Shown in pieces: positions 9,239-47,414 of a DNA stretch of 54,733 nucleotides; the first letter of the stretch is position 1; each line of letters starts with the position of its first letter. Location: the IMG/VR virus record IMGVR_UViG_3300005436_000014, positions 1-54,733 of that record. One strand, 5' to 3'. The notes beneath the pieces were generated by a model, which saw only the letters and a list, made by a program, of their open reading frames with translations, ran no database searches and was not told where the DNA came from. The position numbers were made by a program, and so were the translations under genes. This DNA is from a virus.

Positions 9239-9556
9239 CTATTTTCCCCCGCTCTTTTTTGCTAATTCCTTAATATATTCAATATTGATCTTTAATTTTT
9301 CCCCCGTATTTGAGTCGGCATCAATAATAAAATTTCTTTTGTTTGCTTCATCACATAAATTTTTTATATAATTGAACATCTTGGAATCGATTTGGGTGTT
9401 TTCTAATATCCCATTTTCATTTTCTATATAAGCATTCCCATCTTCATCAGACAGAAAATATAAGGCAATAAGGACTGATTTGGCTTCTTCAGATAAAGAA
9501 TTAAAAATTTGGGATATAGATTTGTTGTTTTTGGTTTTTATTGCTTTGATATGCAT
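9239..9556 (-). CDS. Hypothetical protein, first minus-strand gene of the early operon
   Basis: 105 aa, starting MHIKAIKTKNNKSISQIF, with AAGG eight bases before the ATG. The region ISQIFNSLSEEAKSVLIALYFL looks helical and could be a winged-helix dimerisation segment. It is the first gene transcribed leftward from the divergent control region, so it is a good candidate for an early regulator. Confidence 0.5.
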   Translation of the reverse strand: MHIKAIKTKNNKSISQIFNSLSEEAKSVLIALYFLSDEDGNAYIENENGILENTQIDSKMFNYIKNLCDEANKRNFIIDADSNTGEKLKINIEYIKELAKKSGGK

Positions 9557-9589
9557 GTATTTTTACCTTCGTAAAAAAAATTAATCATT

Positions 9590-9657
9590 ACGTCGAAAAA
9601 AACTCTTGTAAATGTCTGGGAAATTATATATAACCTGAATATACAAGTTTTCGACGT
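9590..9657. repeat. Inverted repeat flanking the first early promoter
   Basis: ACGTCGAAAA...CTTGTA (9590-9610) is matched in inverse by TACAAGTTTTCGACGT (9642-9657). The left arm has five extra bases. The arms bracket a -10-like TATATAA segment. This is a reasonable operator for a dimeric repressor controlling both directions. Confidence 0.5.
9606..9634 (+). promoter_or_regulatory. Candidate rightward promoter
   Basis: TTGTAA (9606-9611), a 17-base gap and TATAAC (9629-9634) make a fair sigma70-type promoter. A start near 9641 would give a transcript of about 70 bases ending at the terminator at 9678-9710. A TATAAT reading leftward overlaps it (9623-9628) and could serve the 9239-9556 gene. 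Confidence 0.4.
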
Positions 9658-9710
9658 GCCTGCGTAGAAACTATTTTAAAGGGCTCTTTCAACGGAGCCC
9701 TTTTTAATTT
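9641..9710 (+). ncRNA. Candidate short untranslated RNA 1
   Basis: An intrinsic terminator with no upstream protein gene on its strand, plus a promoter-like pair at 9606-9634, predict an RNA of about 70 nt. I found no complementary target in the window. It could also be a remnant of a lost gene. Confidence 0.3.
9678..9710 (+). terminator. Intrinsic terminator
   Basis: GGGCTC (9681-9686) pairs with GAGCCC (9695-9700), extended by AAA/TTT, with an eight-base loop and a run of five T. On the opposite strand the U-tract is weaker. Confidence 0.8.
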
Positions 9711-9833
9711 ATGGATCGTTCATTTATCTCTCCAAAAGTTACTTAAAAATCTATCGGGTATAATGCTTCATGATTTATAATCACGCAATAGTTTTTTCTT
9801 GCCGGGGTAATAATTTTATGTGATAAATGAATT

Positions 9834-9857
9834 GAACCATTGATAAATCTCCGGTTC
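9834..9857. promoter_or_regulatory. Possible operator in the antisense-RNA promoter
   Basis: GAACC (9834-9838) and GGTTC (9853-9857) form an inverted repeat lying between and partly over the -35 and -10 of the candidate RNA promoter. The arms are short, so chance cannot be excluded. Confidence 0.25.
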
Positions 9858-9867
9858 TAATTGTTAT

Positions 9868-9926
9868 GAATTCAAAGTTCATCACTATTGATACAGCCCA
9901 GGGTCCTCCAAGGCCCTGGGTTTTTT
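9868..9926 (+). ncRNA. Candidate antisense RNA complementary to the leader of the next gene (c4/CI-like)
   Basis: A promoter-like TTGAAC (9832-9837), an 18-base gap and TCTAAT (9856-9861) would start RNA near 9868. An intrinsic terminator ends it near 9926, giving about 59 nt. Its 5' half, 9871-9895, is complementary to 10003-10029 in two blocks of 9 and 12 bases, with a 4-versus-6-base unpaired bulge. That target is the predicted 5' end of the mRNA for the 10044 gene and stops three bases before the GGAG. RNA and target are on the same strand, as in the P1 c4 and P4 CI immunity RNAs. A longer form from the TATAAT at 9759-9764 is possible. Nothing here proves expression. Confidence 0.5.
9896..9926 (+). 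terminator. Strong intrinsic terminator of the candidate antisense RNA
   Basis: CCCAGGG (9897-9903) pairs perfectly with CCCTGGG (9914-9920) around a ten-base loop, followed by six T. No protein gene precedes it on this strand. Confidence 0.85.
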
Positions 9927-9967
9927 AATGATAAAATTAAATTATAATAAATATAAAACTTTTAGTG

Positions 9968-9997
9968 TTGACATTGGTATATCTCCCATGATTATAT
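9968..9997 (+). promoter_or_regulatory. Promoter of the rightward early operon
   Basis: Consensus TTGACA (9968-9973) and TTATAT (9992-9997) are separated by 18 bases (17 if ATTATA is used). The start would be near 10004, exactly where the region complementary to the candidate antisense RNA begins. Confidence 0.6.
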
Positions 9998-10043
9998 GGT
10001 GTTGTATCAATAGTATCGTTAACTTTGAACTTGGAGACAATTA

Positions 10044-10307
10044 ATGGCTAAATATGACTATGAATATGGAAAAATGTATGGTGTCGTTGAAAAATATATC
10101 AACGAAGATGTAATAATCGAACCAGAAATTATCGAACGATCCTCATCGTTCATAGAAGAACTCCTCAGAGGAGATGGTTTTGAGGGAATGGCCATTGTGC
10201 TAAAGAACCAGACCATTAACTTCTTCCCATCCAAAAAACTCGCCGAAGAATTCTACGATCACGTATGCCTAGAGAAGGCCATGCGAAATCCCATTGTTGT
10301 AAATTAA
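10044..10307 (+). CDS. Hypothetical acidic protein, first gene of the rightward operon
   Basis: 87 aa with GGAG seven bases before the ATG. Starts MAKYDYEYGKMYGVVEKY. It has an alpha/beta appearance with EGMAIVLKNQTINFFPSKKLAEEFYDHV, and no family is recognised. Its 5' leader is the target of the candidate antisense RNA, so it may be the gene whose expression is gated in a lysogenic-lytic or immunity decision. That role is inference only. Confidence 0.65.
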   Translation: MAKYDYEYGKMYGVVEKYINEDVIIEPEIIERSSSFIEELLRGDGFEGMAIVLKNQTINFFPSKKLAEEFYDHVCLEKAMRNPIVVN

Positions 10308-10846: not shown

Positions 10847-12157
10847 ATGAAAATGTTAAAGAAAGCTGAAAATCAAACGGCATTTGGCAAGGTTGGATTA
10901 TATGGTGATGCGGGTAGTGGAAAAACCTTTACAGCTGCGTGTATGGCAATTGGGCTGCATAAATTTGCAAAATGCACAAAGCCAGTTGCATTCTTCGATA
11001 CAGAACCGGCATTAAGCTATGTTCTGCCGTTGTTTGAGGCAGCGGGAATAGAGGTGTTGTCATGTGAATCTCGGGCTTTATCGGATCTTATGGCATTTAT
11101 GGAAGAAGCGGAAAAAGAGTGTTCAATCGTAATCATTGATTCAATAACGCACGTTTGGAGAGATGTGCAAAAATCCTATATGGATAAGCTCAATGAAACG
11201 AGACGCAAAAAGAATCAATCCCCCCTTCAAAAGCTAGAGTTTCATCACTGGGGAGCCATTAAGGATGTGTGGGGAAGGTTTACTGATAAGTTTCTCTCAT
11301 CCAAGGTCCATGTGATTCTATGTGGGAGGGCGTCGTCTATCTATGAATATCAAACAAATGATAATGGAAAGAAGGAACTTATTACCAATGGTACCAAAAT
11401 GGCTACCGAGAAAGAATTAGGATATGAGCCATCCCTTCTTATAGAAATGATAAAACACAGAGAAAATGGGAAGATAACCAACAGGGCGCTAATAGAGAAG
11501 GATAGGTTTAATTTCATTAATGGAGATGAGATAGACTTTAGTCCCCACAAAGGCGTCAATATGGAGAACATATTGGACGTATTTGATCGGGTAAAACCCC
11601 ACTTCGAATCCTTAAACCTAAAAGGAACTCATTATGGATCTCTCAATGAAAGGGATTCAAAAGACATGTATCCAGATCTAGATGATGATGAATGGCCAAG
11701 CGAGCTACGCCAAAGAACGCGCTGGTCTGAAGAAATACAAGGTATAATGGTAAAATACTACCCAGGTCAAACGGCGGAAGATAAGAAGAATAAGTCTGAA
11801 TTGCTTGAAACATTCTTTGATACAAGAAGCTGGACAAAGGTATCTGAACAAACAAAAAGTGCGGTATTAAAAGAAAAGTTCTTTCAGATGAAAACATATC
11901 TTGAATCAATTCATGAGACAGTGGAACCCAATACACCACCTGAATTAATGATAGACGCTATTCAGGTTAAAGATCTTGTGGGGCTAATAGATAATGATTT
12001 GAACCTATTACAATCCTTATATGATAAGTACAAAGTTAAAAAACTAGAAGATATCTCCAAGGGTCAATATTTTGCAATCAAAGATGAATTGCGCATATTA
12101 AAATCATCTAAAGCTATTGCATCTGACTCTGAATTTTTGAATGAAAAAGTGGCTTGA
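10847..12157 (+). CDS. Phage AAA_24/Sak4-like recombination ATPase
   Basis: 436 aa. Walker A GDAGSGKT (residues 20-27), FFDTEPA at 49-55 and Walker B IVIIDS (94-99) match the RecA-like core of phage AAA_24 nucleotide-binding proteins, including Sak4-type single-strand annealing partners. The C-terminal ~200 residues are charged and helical, with no named domain; they are longer than in minimal Sak4 proteins. A likely role is ATP-dependent homologous recombination or DNA repair during replication, working with RusA. Start chosen at ATG 10847 because AGGA lies seven bases upstream. Confidence 0.75.
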   Translation: MKMLKKAENQTAFGKVGLYGDAGSGKTFTAACMAIGLHKFAKCTKPVAFFDTEPALSYVLPLFEAAGIEVLSCESRALSDLMAFMEEAEKECSIVIIDSITHVWRDVQKSYMDKLNETRRKKNQSPLQKLEFHHWGAIKDVWGRFTDKFLSSKVHVILCGRASSIYEYQTNDNGKKELITNGTKMATEKELGYEPSLLIEMIKHRENGKITNRALIEKDRFNFINGDEIDFSPHKGVNMENILDVFDRVKPHFESLNLKGTHYGSLNERDSKDMYPDLDDDEWPSELRQRTRWSEEIQGIMVKYYPGQTAEDKKNKSELLETFFDTRSWTKVSEQTKSAVLKEKFFQMKTYLESIHETVEPNTPPELMIDAIQVKDLVGLIDNDLNLLQSLYDKYKVKKLEDISKGQYFAIKDELRILKSSKAIASDSEFLNEKVA

Positions 12158-13797: not shown

Positions 13798-14391
13798 ATG
13801 AAAATAAAAAAAAGAATCTATAAAAAAAGAGAGCGAAAGCATCTTTTAGAGCATGAAATTTCAATAATTTACGACATGTGTGAGCGAACAAAGTTCCCAT
13901 TGCGCAATAAATTGTTAATACTCATGTCATACAACCATGCCCTTAGACCGTCCGAGACGTGTGATTTAAAGTGGTCAGATATAGATTTAATTAATAATAT
14001 CATACACATAAAGAGAAAAAAGAATGGTGTGAGCGGTTATCATCCAATAGAATGTCAAACAACGCTTGAGCTTTTAAAACAACACAAAGAAAGGAGATAT
14101 CTTCCCGATAAATATGTATTTATGTCTCAATATAAGCGCCCACCAACAAAATTAGACCCAGATAATTATAATGATTTGTGTGAAAAGTTAGGAATTATGG
14201 CAGGATTTGATTTTAAATTCACCCCCCATATGCTGAGACACTCAAAACCAACCAAACTGATAGAGGATGGTGTGAATATTATGGTAGTAAAGGGTCTCAT
14301 GGGCCATTCAAAAGTTTCTTCAACAGAAATATATATACATATGGGAATAAATCAATATAGAGGATTAACTAAGGGATCAATGTTTGCATGA
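13798..14391 (+). CDS. int: Tyrosine recombinase (integrase), catalytic domain only
   Basis: 197 aa. Carries the full catalytic set: R50 (ALRPSE), Lys in IKRKKNG (72-76), H144-x-x-R147-H148 (HMLRHS), H170 (MGHSKVSS) and nucleophile Y179 (TEIYIH). It lacks the N-terminal core-binding domain of lambda-type integrases, so it resembles the short FimB-like class. It could integrate the phage, resolve dimers or invert a segment. No attachment site or crossover repeat is identifiable nearby. The HTH protein at 7738-8022 is a possible excisionase. Confidence 0.85.
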   Translation: MKIKKRIYKKRERKHLLEHEISIIYDMCERTKFPLRNKLLILMSYNHALRPSETCDLKWSDIDLINNIIHIKRKKNGVSGYHPIECQTTLELLKQHKERRYLPDKYVFMSQYKRPPTKLDPDNYNDLCEKLGIMAGFDFKFTPHMLRHSKPTKLIEDGVNIMVVKGLMGHSKVSSTEIYIHMGINQYRGLTKGSMFA

Positions 14392-15895: not shown

Positions 15896-15912
15896 AAATA
15901 AGGGAAATGCTC

Positions 15913-16281
15913 ATGAAAAGTAAGTCTTTAGGTCAAATTATTAGGGACGCTCGAAAAGTGAAGAAGATGTCTCAACAGGAAGTTGCATCTATCATTAATG
16001 TCTCCCACGTTTATTTATCTAACATAGAAAGAAATAATCAATGTTCCTATAGTGTTCTGGAACGCATATGCATGGCATTAGATATGGATTATGAAAAATA
16101 TTCTAAAATGAAAACTCATTGGTATAATCCACCTCATGAACATTCACAATTTCAAATGTGTAATATCATCGACAAATGGTATCTGGACTGGGAAAGCCAG
16201 TTAGGAAAGGGAAGTTCAAGGTTTGCGTTCGCTAAAGAGCAATTAAAAGATCTCTTATGTAGTCCTTATGTCTTTGAATGA
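15913..16281 (+). CDS. XRE/Cro-CI-type transcriptional regulator
   Basis: 122 aa from ATG 15913 (AAGGG at good spacing; ATG 15907 is too close). LGQIIRDARKVKKMSQQEVASIINVSHVYLSNIERNNQ is a standard HTH_3 domain. The C-terminus has no visible protease or dimerisation signature. It is the best candidate phage repressor or antirepressor in the window and follows a terminator, so it may have its own promoter. The inverted repeat at 9590-9657 is a candidate site. Confidence 0.75.
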   Translation: MKSKSLGQIIRDARKVKKMSQQEVASIINVSHVYLSNIERNNQCSYSVLERICMALDMDYEKYSKMKTHWYNPPHEHSQFQMCNIIDKWYLDWESQLGKGSSRFAFAKEQLKDLLCSPYVFE

Positions 16282-40298: not shown

Positions 40299-41210
40299 TT
40301 ATGCTCCTTGTGATCCGAAAGCCGCACGCCAGTTAGAACAACCAAAGGAATAACGCTCAACGAAGTTAACGTTTAGGTTACGCGTAGTTGTATCGGTAAA
40401 CATGTCAATGGTAAGAGGATCGCGTTCATAATATTTGAACCCGTTCTGTTCATTGCAAGTTGTAAGCAATGTCCATTGATTTGGATTGGTCAAGAATAGG
40501 TTGACCGCATGTCCTTGAGGCACACCACTCATGTTGTAAAGAGCATTGATATCGTTATCCGCTGTAGATGTACGGAATTTAGATTCTAATAGTCTTTCAC
40601 AAGTGAATTGTAACTGAGGGGGAACAACCAACTTCATAGCGCGATAAGAAATACGCAAAGCTGCCGCACTTAAGAACTGTTGAATGCCAACATATGCATC
40701 TTGCAATGATGTTTCATTCAATTGAGTTGGAAGTGCAAAAGCATTTGGTGATGTATTACCAACAACTGGGTGAGCTGTTGAAAACAAAGGCTGCCCGTCG
40801 CTTACTGGGAAGCTTGAGGAAAAACCATTGTTAATAATGGCAGCACCATTAATGTTCTTTGCTTGACGCATGGAATCTTTACCAGACTCTGAAGCGCGAG
40901 GCCATTGGTCTTTATAAAGGTTATCTCGAATTGCGTTTGCTGTGATCAAGAAGCCAATACCAAAGTTCCTATGGTAATAGGATGTTTGATAGATCTGAGC
41001 CATATCACCATATGCAACAGCGCCACCATCTGGCTTATATTGTGCAACTGGTAATAGTCTCATTTCTTCTTCAAGTTCAAATGCTTTATCAGAAATGTGT
41101 TGAGTAAAAATCTCTTTCCATTGATCTGGATAAACATTGTAATCACCGAAAACGGCAGCGAGACCAGGCCGTAAAAGGTTTTGGATTGATTGTAAAGTGA
41201 TAATCGACAT
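40299..41210 (-). CDS. Major capsid protein
   Basis: 303 aa. The N-terminal arm (SIITLQSIQNLLRPGLAAVF), then a long central region with LPVAQYKPDGGAVAYGD, LFSTAHPVVGN and LVVPPQLQFTCERLLESKF, match Mu gpT-like major head proteins of the HK97 fold. It is flanked by decoration-like genes, with scaffold and chaperonin genes upstream. Candidate client of the phage GroEL/GroES-like pair. Confidence 0.8.
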   Translation of the reverse strand: MSIITLQSIQNLLRPGLAAVFGDYNVYPDQWKEIFTQHISDKAFELEEEMRLLPVAQYKPDGGAVAYGDMAQIYQTSYYHRNFGIGFLITANAIRDNLYKDQWPRASESGKDSMRQAKNINGAAIINNGFSSSFPVSDGQPLFSTAHPVVGNTSPNAFALPTQLNETSLQDAYVGIQQFLSAAALRISYRAMKLVVPPQLQFTCERLLESKFRTSTADNDINALYNMSGVPQGHAVNLFLTNPNQWTLLTTCNEQNGFKYYERDPLTIDMFTDTTTRNLNVNFVERYSFGCSNWRAAFGSQGA

Positions 41211-42606: not shown

Positions 42607-44247
42607 CTATGTCCTTATCTTAAGAGGATTGGATGGATTCTGAATCGTATTAAGGGTAATCTCATTTTCTTCAATCAAAACGGCCTCAGTGGTTAAGAAT
42701 AAGCCAGCAATAGAGGAAGCATCCTGAAGGGCTGTTATGACAACCTTAGTTGGATCAATAATACCTTGCTCGATCATATCAACTATGTATCCACGTTCCG
42801 CATCGTATCCTATACCAAATCCACTTCCATTAAGATTATCTTCTATAATGGTCTTAATATTATCCGCTGATAATCCAGCATTGGAAAGGATCTGGTAAAA
42901 GGGCTTTACGACAGTTTGCCATAAGATCTGACATCCCTCATCTCTTTGGTTATCACCAATAATCTCAAAACAATGATATGCGGCTTTTAAAAGAGCAATA
43001 CCACCCCCTGGCAATATACCCTCTTGTAGGGCCGCTCTGGTTGCATGAACAGCATCTTCGACTCTATCTTTTCGCTCTTTCATTTCGAACTCAGTAGTTC
43101 CACCTACCTTTATAATGGCTATACCATTGGTAAGCTTTGCATATCGTTCTTCAAATCTCTTCTTTGAGTAATCATCTTCAGCTTTAGAAATTTCTTCTTT
43201 GAGATATTGACATCGTGTATCAAAATCTTCTTTAGATCCTTGCCCATCCACAATCGTTGTTTTTTCGGCTGTAACAATAACTCGTTTGGCTTTGCCCAAT
43301 AACTCTCTATTAACATTAATTAGTCTCATTCCCTTATCTTCAGAAACGATTTGCGTTCCTGTTACAACAGATAGGTCGCTTAATAGGTCATTTCTGTTTT
43401 CGCCAAAGGAGGGACACTTAATAGCGCATATCTTTAAGCCATGCTTCATTTTGTTGATGATAAGAGTAGCAAGAGCTTCAGATTCTACATCTTCAGCAAT
43501 AATAAGGAGAGCTGCTCCGTCTCGCATAATGGATTCAACCAAAGGAACGATTGGGGCAACACCAGCAATCTTATTATCAAATATTAGGATGTAAGGATTA
43601 TCTAATTCACATATCATTTTATTGGGGTTAGTTACAAAATAAGGTGATATTAAACCTTTATCTAACTCAAGTCCCTCAACAATGCGAGATTCAGTCTTCC
43701 CATTAACTGATTCTTCTAATGTTATGACACCTTCTTTTCCAACCTTGATAAATGTATCTGCAATAAGCTTTCCAATCTCAACATCACCGTTAGCTGAAAT
43801 GGTTGCAATTTGCTCGATTTCTGACTCATTTGAGATGATTTTGGAATGATCGCGTAGGTACTTCACAGTTTTTGTGCATGCCATGTCAATCCCACGCTTT
43901 AATTCAATAGGATTTGCGCCATCTTCAATGGCTTTCATTCCCTCATTGATAATATGCTGGGCAAGGACTGTAGCCGTAGTGGTTCCATCCCCAGCAATAT
44001 CACAGGTTTTCATAGCAACTTGACGAATTAGTTCAGCACCAACACTTTCAAACTCATCATATAATTCTACTTCCTTAGCAACGGATACTCCGTCTTTGGT
44101 AATACGGATAGGGTAGTGTGTATTCTTTATAATAACGTTCCTGCCTTTTGGTCCTAATGTGACTTTGACGGCATCGGCTATTTTATTAACCCCTACCAAT
44201 ATCTTTTCACGACCTTCTTTACCAAAGGCAAGGTGTTTCGGAAGCAT
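42607..44247 (-). CDS. groEL: Phage-encoded GroEL chaperonin
   Basis: 546 aa, full length. Conserved in place: TLGPKGRN (30-37), D52, DGTTTA with D87, D398 in RVEDAVHATRAA, and GGG at 414-416. Apical substrate-binding positions are mostly hydrophobic (L199, Y203, F204, V234, V237, L259, I263, I264). The C-terminus ends NPLKIRT and lacks the Gly-Met tail of many bacterial GroELs. It should form an ATP-driven folding cage. Its position among the head genes suggests capsid folding. A GroES-like gene lies upstream at 46000-46422. Confidence 0.95.
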   Translation of the reverse strand: MLPKHLAFGKEGREKILVGVNKIADAVKVTLGPKGRNVIIKNTHYPIRITKDGVSVAKEVELYDEFESVGAELIRQVAMKTCDIAGDGTTTATVLAQHIINEGMKAIEDGANPIELKRGIDMACTKTVKYLRDHSKIISNESEIEQIATISANGDVEIGKLIADTFIKVGKEGVITLEESVNGKTESRIVEGLELDKGLISPYFVTNPNKMICELDNPYILIFDNKIAGVAPIVPLVESIMRDGAALLIIAEDVESEALATLIINKMKHGLKICAIKCPSFGENRNDLLSDLSVVTGTQIVSEDKGMRLINVNRELLGKAKRVIVTAEKTTIVDGQGSKEDFDTRCQYLKEEISKAEDDYSKKRFEERYAKLTNGIAIIKVGGTTEFEMKERKDRVEDAVHATRAALQEGILPGGGIALLKAAYHCFEIIGDNQRDEGCQILWQTVVKPFYQILSNAGLSADNIKTIIEDNLNGSGFGIGYDAERGYIVDMIEQGIIDPTKVVITALQDASSIAGLFLTTEAVLIEENEITLNTIQNPSNPLKIRT

Positions 44248-46696: not shown

Positions 46697-46776
46697 CAGA
46701 AATCCTTTTCTCTAATTTTACTAAAATTGTAATTATTATGTTAGAAAGGTTACTTTTCCTTTGTCAATGATAAATG

Positions 46777-46805
46777 TTGACGAAGCTAAATATTGGTGTT
46801 ATAAC
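46777..46805 (+). promoter_or_regulatory. Promoter of the MazE-MazF-Phd module
   Basis: TTGACG (46777-46782), 17 bases, TATAAC (46800-46805). A strong AAAGGGG ribosome site precedes ATG 46828. The promoter position rules out an earlier in-frame start at 46774. Confidence 0.7.
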
Positions 46806-46827
46806 ATTATTAAAAAGGGGAATAACA

Positions 46828-47088
46828 ATGAGTATACATTTTAGAAAAATAGGAAATTCACATGGTATTCTATTTCCTAAATATATTGTTGATAAGCTTG
46901 GTGTCACAAATGATTTTGTTATTGATTTGATTGATGATTATGTTGTTATCAAAAAGAAAAGACAGCCAAGGGATGGGTGGGAAGAACAATTTTTGGCTGC
47001 TAAAAATGATGGTCTAGAAGATGATGACTTTTCTGACTGGCAAAACATTACTAATGAATTTGATAAAGAAGAAGAGTGGGAATGGTAG
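46828..47088 (+). CDS. mazE: MazE/AbrB-fold antitoxin
   Basis: 86 aa. MSIHFRKIGNSHGILFPKYIVDKLGV is the AbrB/MazE swapped-hairpin DNA-binding domain. The acidic, Trp-rich C-terminus (about 45-86, ending KEEEWEW) would inhibit the MazF toxin. It overlaps mazF by seven bases. Expected to repress the promoter at 46777-46805. Confidence 0.8.
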   Translation: MSIHFRKIGNSHGILFPKYIVDKLGVTNDFVIDLIDDYVVIKKKRQPRDGWEEQFLAAKNDGLEDDDFSDWQNITNEFDKEEEWEW

Positions 47089-47414
47089 AAATGATATTGT
47101 ATTCCAGCTATGATATTTATCTTATAAAATTAGATCCTACGATTGGGTCTGAGATTAACAAAACAAGACCATGTTTAATAATTTCACCTAATATTTCAAA
47201 TAAAAATTTAAATGTTCTTCTAGTCGCGCCATTTACAAGGACAAAAAAAATATATCCTACTCGTATACAATCTAATTTTAACAATTCTATAAGCTACATC
47301 GTGTTAGATCAAATGAGAACAATTGATAAATCTAGGCTTATTAAAAAATTAGGCACATTAGACTTTAAAGAACAAAGGATCGTTAAAGATAAATTATTGG
47401 AGATGTTTTCTTAA
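47082..47414 (+). CDS. mazF: MazF/PemK-type endoribonuclease toxin
   Basis: 110 aa. YDIYLIKLDPTIGSEINKTRPCLIISP and LLVAPFTRTKKIYPTRI are the classic MazF strands, and LDQMRTIDKSRLIKKLG the conserved later motif. It should cut single-stranded mRNA at short sites. The conserved Arg in the KTRP motif and Thr in PFTRT are present. A second ATG at 47091 is an alternative start. Confidence 0.85.
   Translation: MVEMILYSSYDIYLIKLDPTIGSEINKTRPCLIISPNISNKNLNVLLVAPFTRTKKIYPTRIQSNFNNSISYIVLDQMRTIDKSRLIKKLGTLDFKEQRIVKDKLLEMFS

Follow-up and report, generated by a model that had tools for sequence, protein, structure and literature searches.

A candidate same-strand antisense RNA ahead of an early operon with a Sak4-like ATPase in a GroEL-carrying environmental phage

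The CI RNA of satellite phage P4 comes from the leader region of the early operon; it is processed from that leader, pairs with it and causes early transcription to terminate. In phage T4, early read-through transcripts of the lysozyme gene e and of soc hide the Shine-Dalgarno sequence (SD) in hairpins. Phages P1 and P7 make an antisense RNA, c4 (Rfam RF01695; Citron and Schuster, 1990; see PMC5320573 and PMC8198154), of 77 nt, which RNase P cuts from a larger transcript, with one loop covering the ribosome-binding site and another binding upstream for specificity (PMC5320573). The icd and ant genes belong to the same operon as c4 (PMC8198154).

The locus described here lies in IMG/VR virus record IMGVR_UViG_3300005436_000014, positions 1-54,733 (hereafter, the window). 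The reading that the sequence best supports is a short, terminator-ended RNA, RNA2, that is complementary in two parts to the leader of the gene following it on the same strand (Table 1). As with c4, the putative RNA is encoded just 5′ of its target and on the same strand, three stem-loops are predicted, and the computed pairing falls into two separate segments, here one upstream (blocks C and D) and one on the SD and AUG (blocks A and B). Unlike c4, which is processed by RNase P from the target transcript, RNA2 has a predicted promoter and terminator of its own; because these suggest a separate transcription unit, release by RNase P from a transcript that also carries the target probably does not apply. 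Nor is the target an icd/ant antirepressor operon: its first two genes have no Pfam or PHROG match and the third is Sak4-like. Rfam searches gave no match at the gathering threshold in the window, and c4 (RF01695) gave none at a relaxed E-value near the locus or in the two related phages considered below. RNA2 would work like c4, but these comparisons place it outside the c4 family, given the lack of a covariance-model match, the separate promoter and terminator and the different target. An initial annotation of this DNA had proposed a c4/CI-like layout; its two-segment pairing, with RNA and target encoded consecutively on one strand, stands, while the same three differences set the locus apart from c4 itself.

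The other two systems offer partial parallels. Like P4 CI, RNA2 would be a small RNA from an early-operon leader region that pairs with the leader of the same operon; unlike P4 CI, its pairing covers the SD and AUG, suggesting translation control. The arrangement also recalls T4-type masking: in long transcripts the SD would be hidden by the upstream arm, and an internal promoter starts at the other arm. Here, though, the two arms are separated by a strong terminator, which makes a discrete RNA the expected product.

Table 1. Features of the locus in window coordinates; promoters, RNAs and pairings are predictions.
Feature	Position	Strand	Description
P1, putative promoter of RNA1	9606-9634	+	TTGTAA-N17-TATAAC
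RNA1, predicted second small RNA, with terminator T1	9641-9708	+	T1 stem 9678-9703
P2, putative promoter of RNA2	9798-9827	+	CTTGCCG, spacer of 17 nt, TG-t-GATAAA (extended -10)
RNA2, predicted small RNA, ~93 nt	9834-9926	+	predicted start 7 nt past the P2 -10; end at the terminator; fold computed
SL1, 5′ hairpin (GAACC/GGTTC)	9834-9857	+	MFE fold; loop bears AUUGAU and anti-SD UCUCC
Block A, CCATTGAT	9837-9844	+	pairs with 10040-10047 (start codon), i.e. ATTAATGG, in the cofold structure
Block B, TCTCCG	9848-9853	+	pairs with 10032-10037 (Shine-Dalgarno) in the cofold structure
Block C, exact 9 bp	9871-9879	+	pairs with 10021-10029
Block D, exact 12 bp	9884-9895	+	pairs with 10003-10014
T2, intrinsic terminator of RNA2	9895-9926	+	strong hairpin, six T
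P3, promoter-like, target operon	9968-9995	+	TTGACA-N16-GATTAT
Target leader	10002-10047	+	SD 10033-10036, start codon 10044-10046
Target gene, 87 aa	10044-10307	+	alpha/beta model, no named family; homologues in L002 (32%) and L004 (38%)
Second operon gene, 159 aa	10341-10820	+	conserved, unnamed function; kept in relatives
Third operon gene, Sak4-like AAA ATPase	10847-12157	+	ssDNA annealing/recombination; phrog_124, Pfam AAA_24

Viral contigs were queried with the 87-aa, 159-aa, Sak4, 257-aa and terminase proteins, and the Sak4 search was extended to genome contigs and to a phylum sample of 398 genomes. Only two relatives share the layout: IMGVR_UViG_3300031708_000013 (L002), whose Sak4 protein is 81% identical over the alignment, and IMGVR_UViG_3300003321_000545 (L004), with 67%. 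Promoter, terminator and target operon are conserved in all three phages, as is the unit formed by P1 and T1. None of 25 terminase relatives matched the Sak4 gene or the 159-aa gene. One relative by terminase and capsid, IMGVR_UViG_3300020045_016223 (L086-L088), has a different early region.

These relatives bear directly on where RNA2 begins. The window has a single copy of the element CTTG-N14-TTATG-NN-ATA, at 9798-9825, and each relative likewise has one, at the orthologous position in the intergenic alignment of the three phages; in every case a terminator follows 60-140 nt 3′ of it, and the homologous target operon comes next. The element reads as an extended -10 promoter that would start transcription at ~9834, the first base of the hairpin GAACC...GGTTC. 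Since this promoter, immediately upstream, is conserved in two relatives, RNA2 probably extends over ~9834-9926 (93 nt) rather than 9868-9926, as first drawn. The promoter originally chosen, TTGAAC...TCTAAT, overlaps and is built from the hairpin at 9834-9857 and has no counterpart in L004; we have replaced it with P2. Other elements of the earlier description were found as described, namely the terminator with its six T (equivalents at 4001-4034 in L002 and 5383-5405 in L004), the TTGACA promoter-like site at 9968 and the GGAG ahead of the ATG at 10044. P3 is matched at the equivalent position by TTGACT in L002 and TTGACG in L004, and the mRNA start predicted from it is the first base of the target region. 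All promoter predictions are based on consensus and on three genomes.

With the 5′ end at ~9834, pairing to the SD and start codon would be added to the two exact blocks of 9 and 12 bp, which are present precisely as initially reported. The predicted complex (cofold) contains blocks A-D, all in order, across 10003-10047, and, apart from one insert of ~14 nt, RNA2 in effect reads as the leader's reverse complement. The earlier statement that the target ends three bases before the GGAG is accurate for the 9-bp block only.

Computation shows that the complementarity exists, that it is significant, and that promoter and terminator are conserved as a unit. By RNAduplex, the RNA body binds the leader at -36.1 kcal/mol, compared with -14.7 ± 3.2 for dinucleotide shuffles (0 of 2000 as good), and none of 7262 windows of 60 nt in the phage genome pairs better. 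A stricter local stacking model, with loops limited to ≤4 nt, gave -27.9 against -10.0 ± 3.05 for shuffles (0/400). When the cost of opening both partners was included, through the partition function (cofold), binding was -19.4 kcal/mol and that of shuffled leaders -4.4 ± 2.2 (0/150). The start at 10044 is also the best partner of RNA2 among 101 phage gene starts (-27.9; next, -22.5). In a separate test of each gene start against the 300 nt that precede it, 10044 ranked first of 99 with a close runner-up (-30.27 and -29.97). Under a permissive Smith-Waterman alignment, one of 5000 shuffles did as well, and elsewhere in the window a small number of other local inverted pairs reached similar scores. 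The match is therefore well beyond chance at the locus, while its genome-wide uniqueness is not beyond doubt.

The 87-aa target protein is soluble, acidic and alpha/beta (GRAVY -0.22), without a transmembrane-like stretch; its AF2 model has a pLDDT of 72, and a structure search with it found no informative PDB match. By annotation, the target opens an early operon that includes a Sak4-like ATPase; it is neither an antirepressor nor a repressor gene. Nothing in the analysis supports the role in immunity or in a lysis-lysogeny decision that was suggested initially.

We propose that RNA2, made from P2 and ending at T2, is an antisense repressor of the operon at 10044, and judge this proposal evenly poised between right and wrong. 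That the RNA is transcribed, pairs in trans and represses, and on what biological occasion, we infer from sequence. In this proposal, RNA2 (~9834-9926) would be made from its own promoter, stop at T2 and pair with the whole leader, antiparallel and collinear. Block D, in a 3′ unpaired stretch, and block C, in the loop of the second hairpin, would bind the mRNA at its 5′ end, after which SL1 would open and let blocks B and A cover the SD and AUG. Ribosome binding would be prevented and translation of the first gene blocked, and expression of the 159-aa gene and the Sak4-like ATPase may fall through polarity. The most economical mechanism is a separate small RNA that keeps translation of the first gene from starting.

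The chief evidence against a conserved antisense function is that the complementarity is not conserved in the two relatives. In L002, RNA2 binds its own leader at -8.9 kcal/mol, with 13 of 150 shuffles as good by cofold and 161 of 400 under the stacking model; in L004 the value is -8.3 kcal/mol (133/150 and 159/400, respectively). The own leader ranks 42nd of 105 gene starts in L002 and 55th of 85 in L004. Among the duplex, stacking-model and cofold measures, only the L002 cofold (13/150) leaned positive. By eye, we read an exact 8-nt match to the SD in L004, TATCTCCA, and one of 8 nt with a single G-U in L002, GTTTCCTT, both of which may be chance. The expectation that related phages would keep the complementarity through compensating changes was not borne out: no covariation of the pairing appeared in the two distant relatives, where pairing was mostly no better than in shuffles. 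Because L002 and L004 are distant in this region, their sequences fit loss, replacement or a different target alike.

These comparisons count in favour of an alternative in which the complementarity is a lineage-specific inverted duplication, or chance, without function, and the conserved unit of P2, RNA2 and T2 serves otherwise, for example as an antitermination leader or against host targets. We consider this unlikely but the foremost competitor of the antisense proposal. The complementarity is missing in both relatives despite the kept unit, and the few equally high-scoring inverted pairs in the permissive alignment also fit; against it stand the very low energy relative to shuffles, the correct order of four blocks over the SD and AUG, and a position exactly at the predicted mRNA start.

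A second alternative places the same pairing in cis. In transcripts from P1 or P2 that pass T2, the RNA2 segment would pair with the leader and sequester the SD, leaving only P3 transcripts to be translated, by the logic of the T4 gene e and soc transcripts. The read-through transcript 9834-10110 indeed folds with block D (P 0.99) and block C (0.70) formed and the SD masked, and the P3 start sits at the 3′ arm. However, a strong T2 should stop most P2 transcripts, and the conservation of both terminators favours discrete RNAs; we consider cis masking rather improbable. Still, any read-through transcript would have its SD masked in cis by the same bases, so the sequence fits cis and trans modes alike.

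We think it similarly improbable that the repeats act as DNA and that the RNA pairing is incidental. Three similar 12-mers lie at 9836-9847, 9884-9895 and, inverted, 10003-10014, placing copies (ATTGATA repeats) at both predicted transcription starts (P2 and P3); these could be operators bound by a phage repressor, and the phage does encode a Cro/CI-type HTH protein (HTH_3; 15907-16281) that might serve. Operators would nevertheless leave block C and the collinear SD/AUG blocks unexplained, and by eye we saw no equivalent repeats at P2 and P3 in L002 or L004. Finally, a type I toxin-antitoxin-like pair such as istR/tisB, in which an antisense RNA adjoins a small toxin, would account for a neighbouring small RNA that is complementary over ~20 nt to a small ORF's leader, but is very improbable for a soluble acidic alpha/beta protein that lacks a transmembrane-like stretch, heads a conserved operon and is itself conserved in three phages.

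Directly 5′ of the RNA2 unit lies the RNA1 unit (9606-9708). Counterparts of P1 are TTGAAA-N17-TATAAC in L002 and TTGACT-N17-TATAAA in L004, with the common form TTGNNN-N17-TATAA(C/A), and T1 has equivalents in both. RNA1 showed no convincing target among the phage gene starts and no pairing with RNA2. Taking the two units together, we tentatively suggest, with less confidence than for repression by RNA2 itself, that a group of GroEL-carrying environmental phages keeps two small RNAs encoded in tandem, both with a promoter and terminator of their own, ahead of the early recombination operon, and that the second RNA here, a near-complete inverted copy of the leader, is a discrete same-strand antisense repressor that does not descend from c4 or P4 CI. 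If so, c4-like operon control would have arisen independently, through a separately transcribed, nearly inverted copy of a neighbour's leader, and the case would show how local inverted duplication can give rise to such RNAs, which then diverge quickly among relatives. Clear predictions that can be tested cheaply follow from the conserved tandem units of promoter, RNA and terminator.

Two further repeats were observed around these units. An exact 10-bp inverted repeat, ACGTCGAAAA/TTTTCGACGT, lies either side of P1 (9590-9599 and 9648-9657) and possibly represents operators of the divergent promoters. Another, TTCATTTATC/GATAAATGAA, occupies 9719-9728 and 9822-9831, with one copy overlapping the P2 -10; TTCATTTATC is also present after T1 in L002 (3772).

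The phage encodes its own GroEL chaperonin (42607-44247), which is kept in the phages of L002 (76%) and L004 (73%) and in one further relative (55%). By terminase, its nearest matches are Roseobacter phages CRP-901/902 (42%). The major capsid protein (40299-41210) shares 48% identity with a capsid protein encoded on pBealeia1, a 57.5-kb plasmid of the Holosporales intracellular symbiont Candidatus Bealeia, and it also matches Ca. Megaera plasmids (35%). The capsid matches point to a possible phage-plasmid lineage of Holosporales/Rickettsiales, and a phage-plasmid lifestyle is possible for the source phage. Elsewhere in the window, a PemK/MazF-like toxin gene (46774-47414) has a likely antitoxin gene immediately 5′ of it, and the Cro/CI-type protein mentioned above, of 124 aa, is a candidate repressor. 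A short tyrosine recombinase of 197 aa is encoded at 13798-14391, and L004 has a similarly short one (217 aa, 9355-10008).
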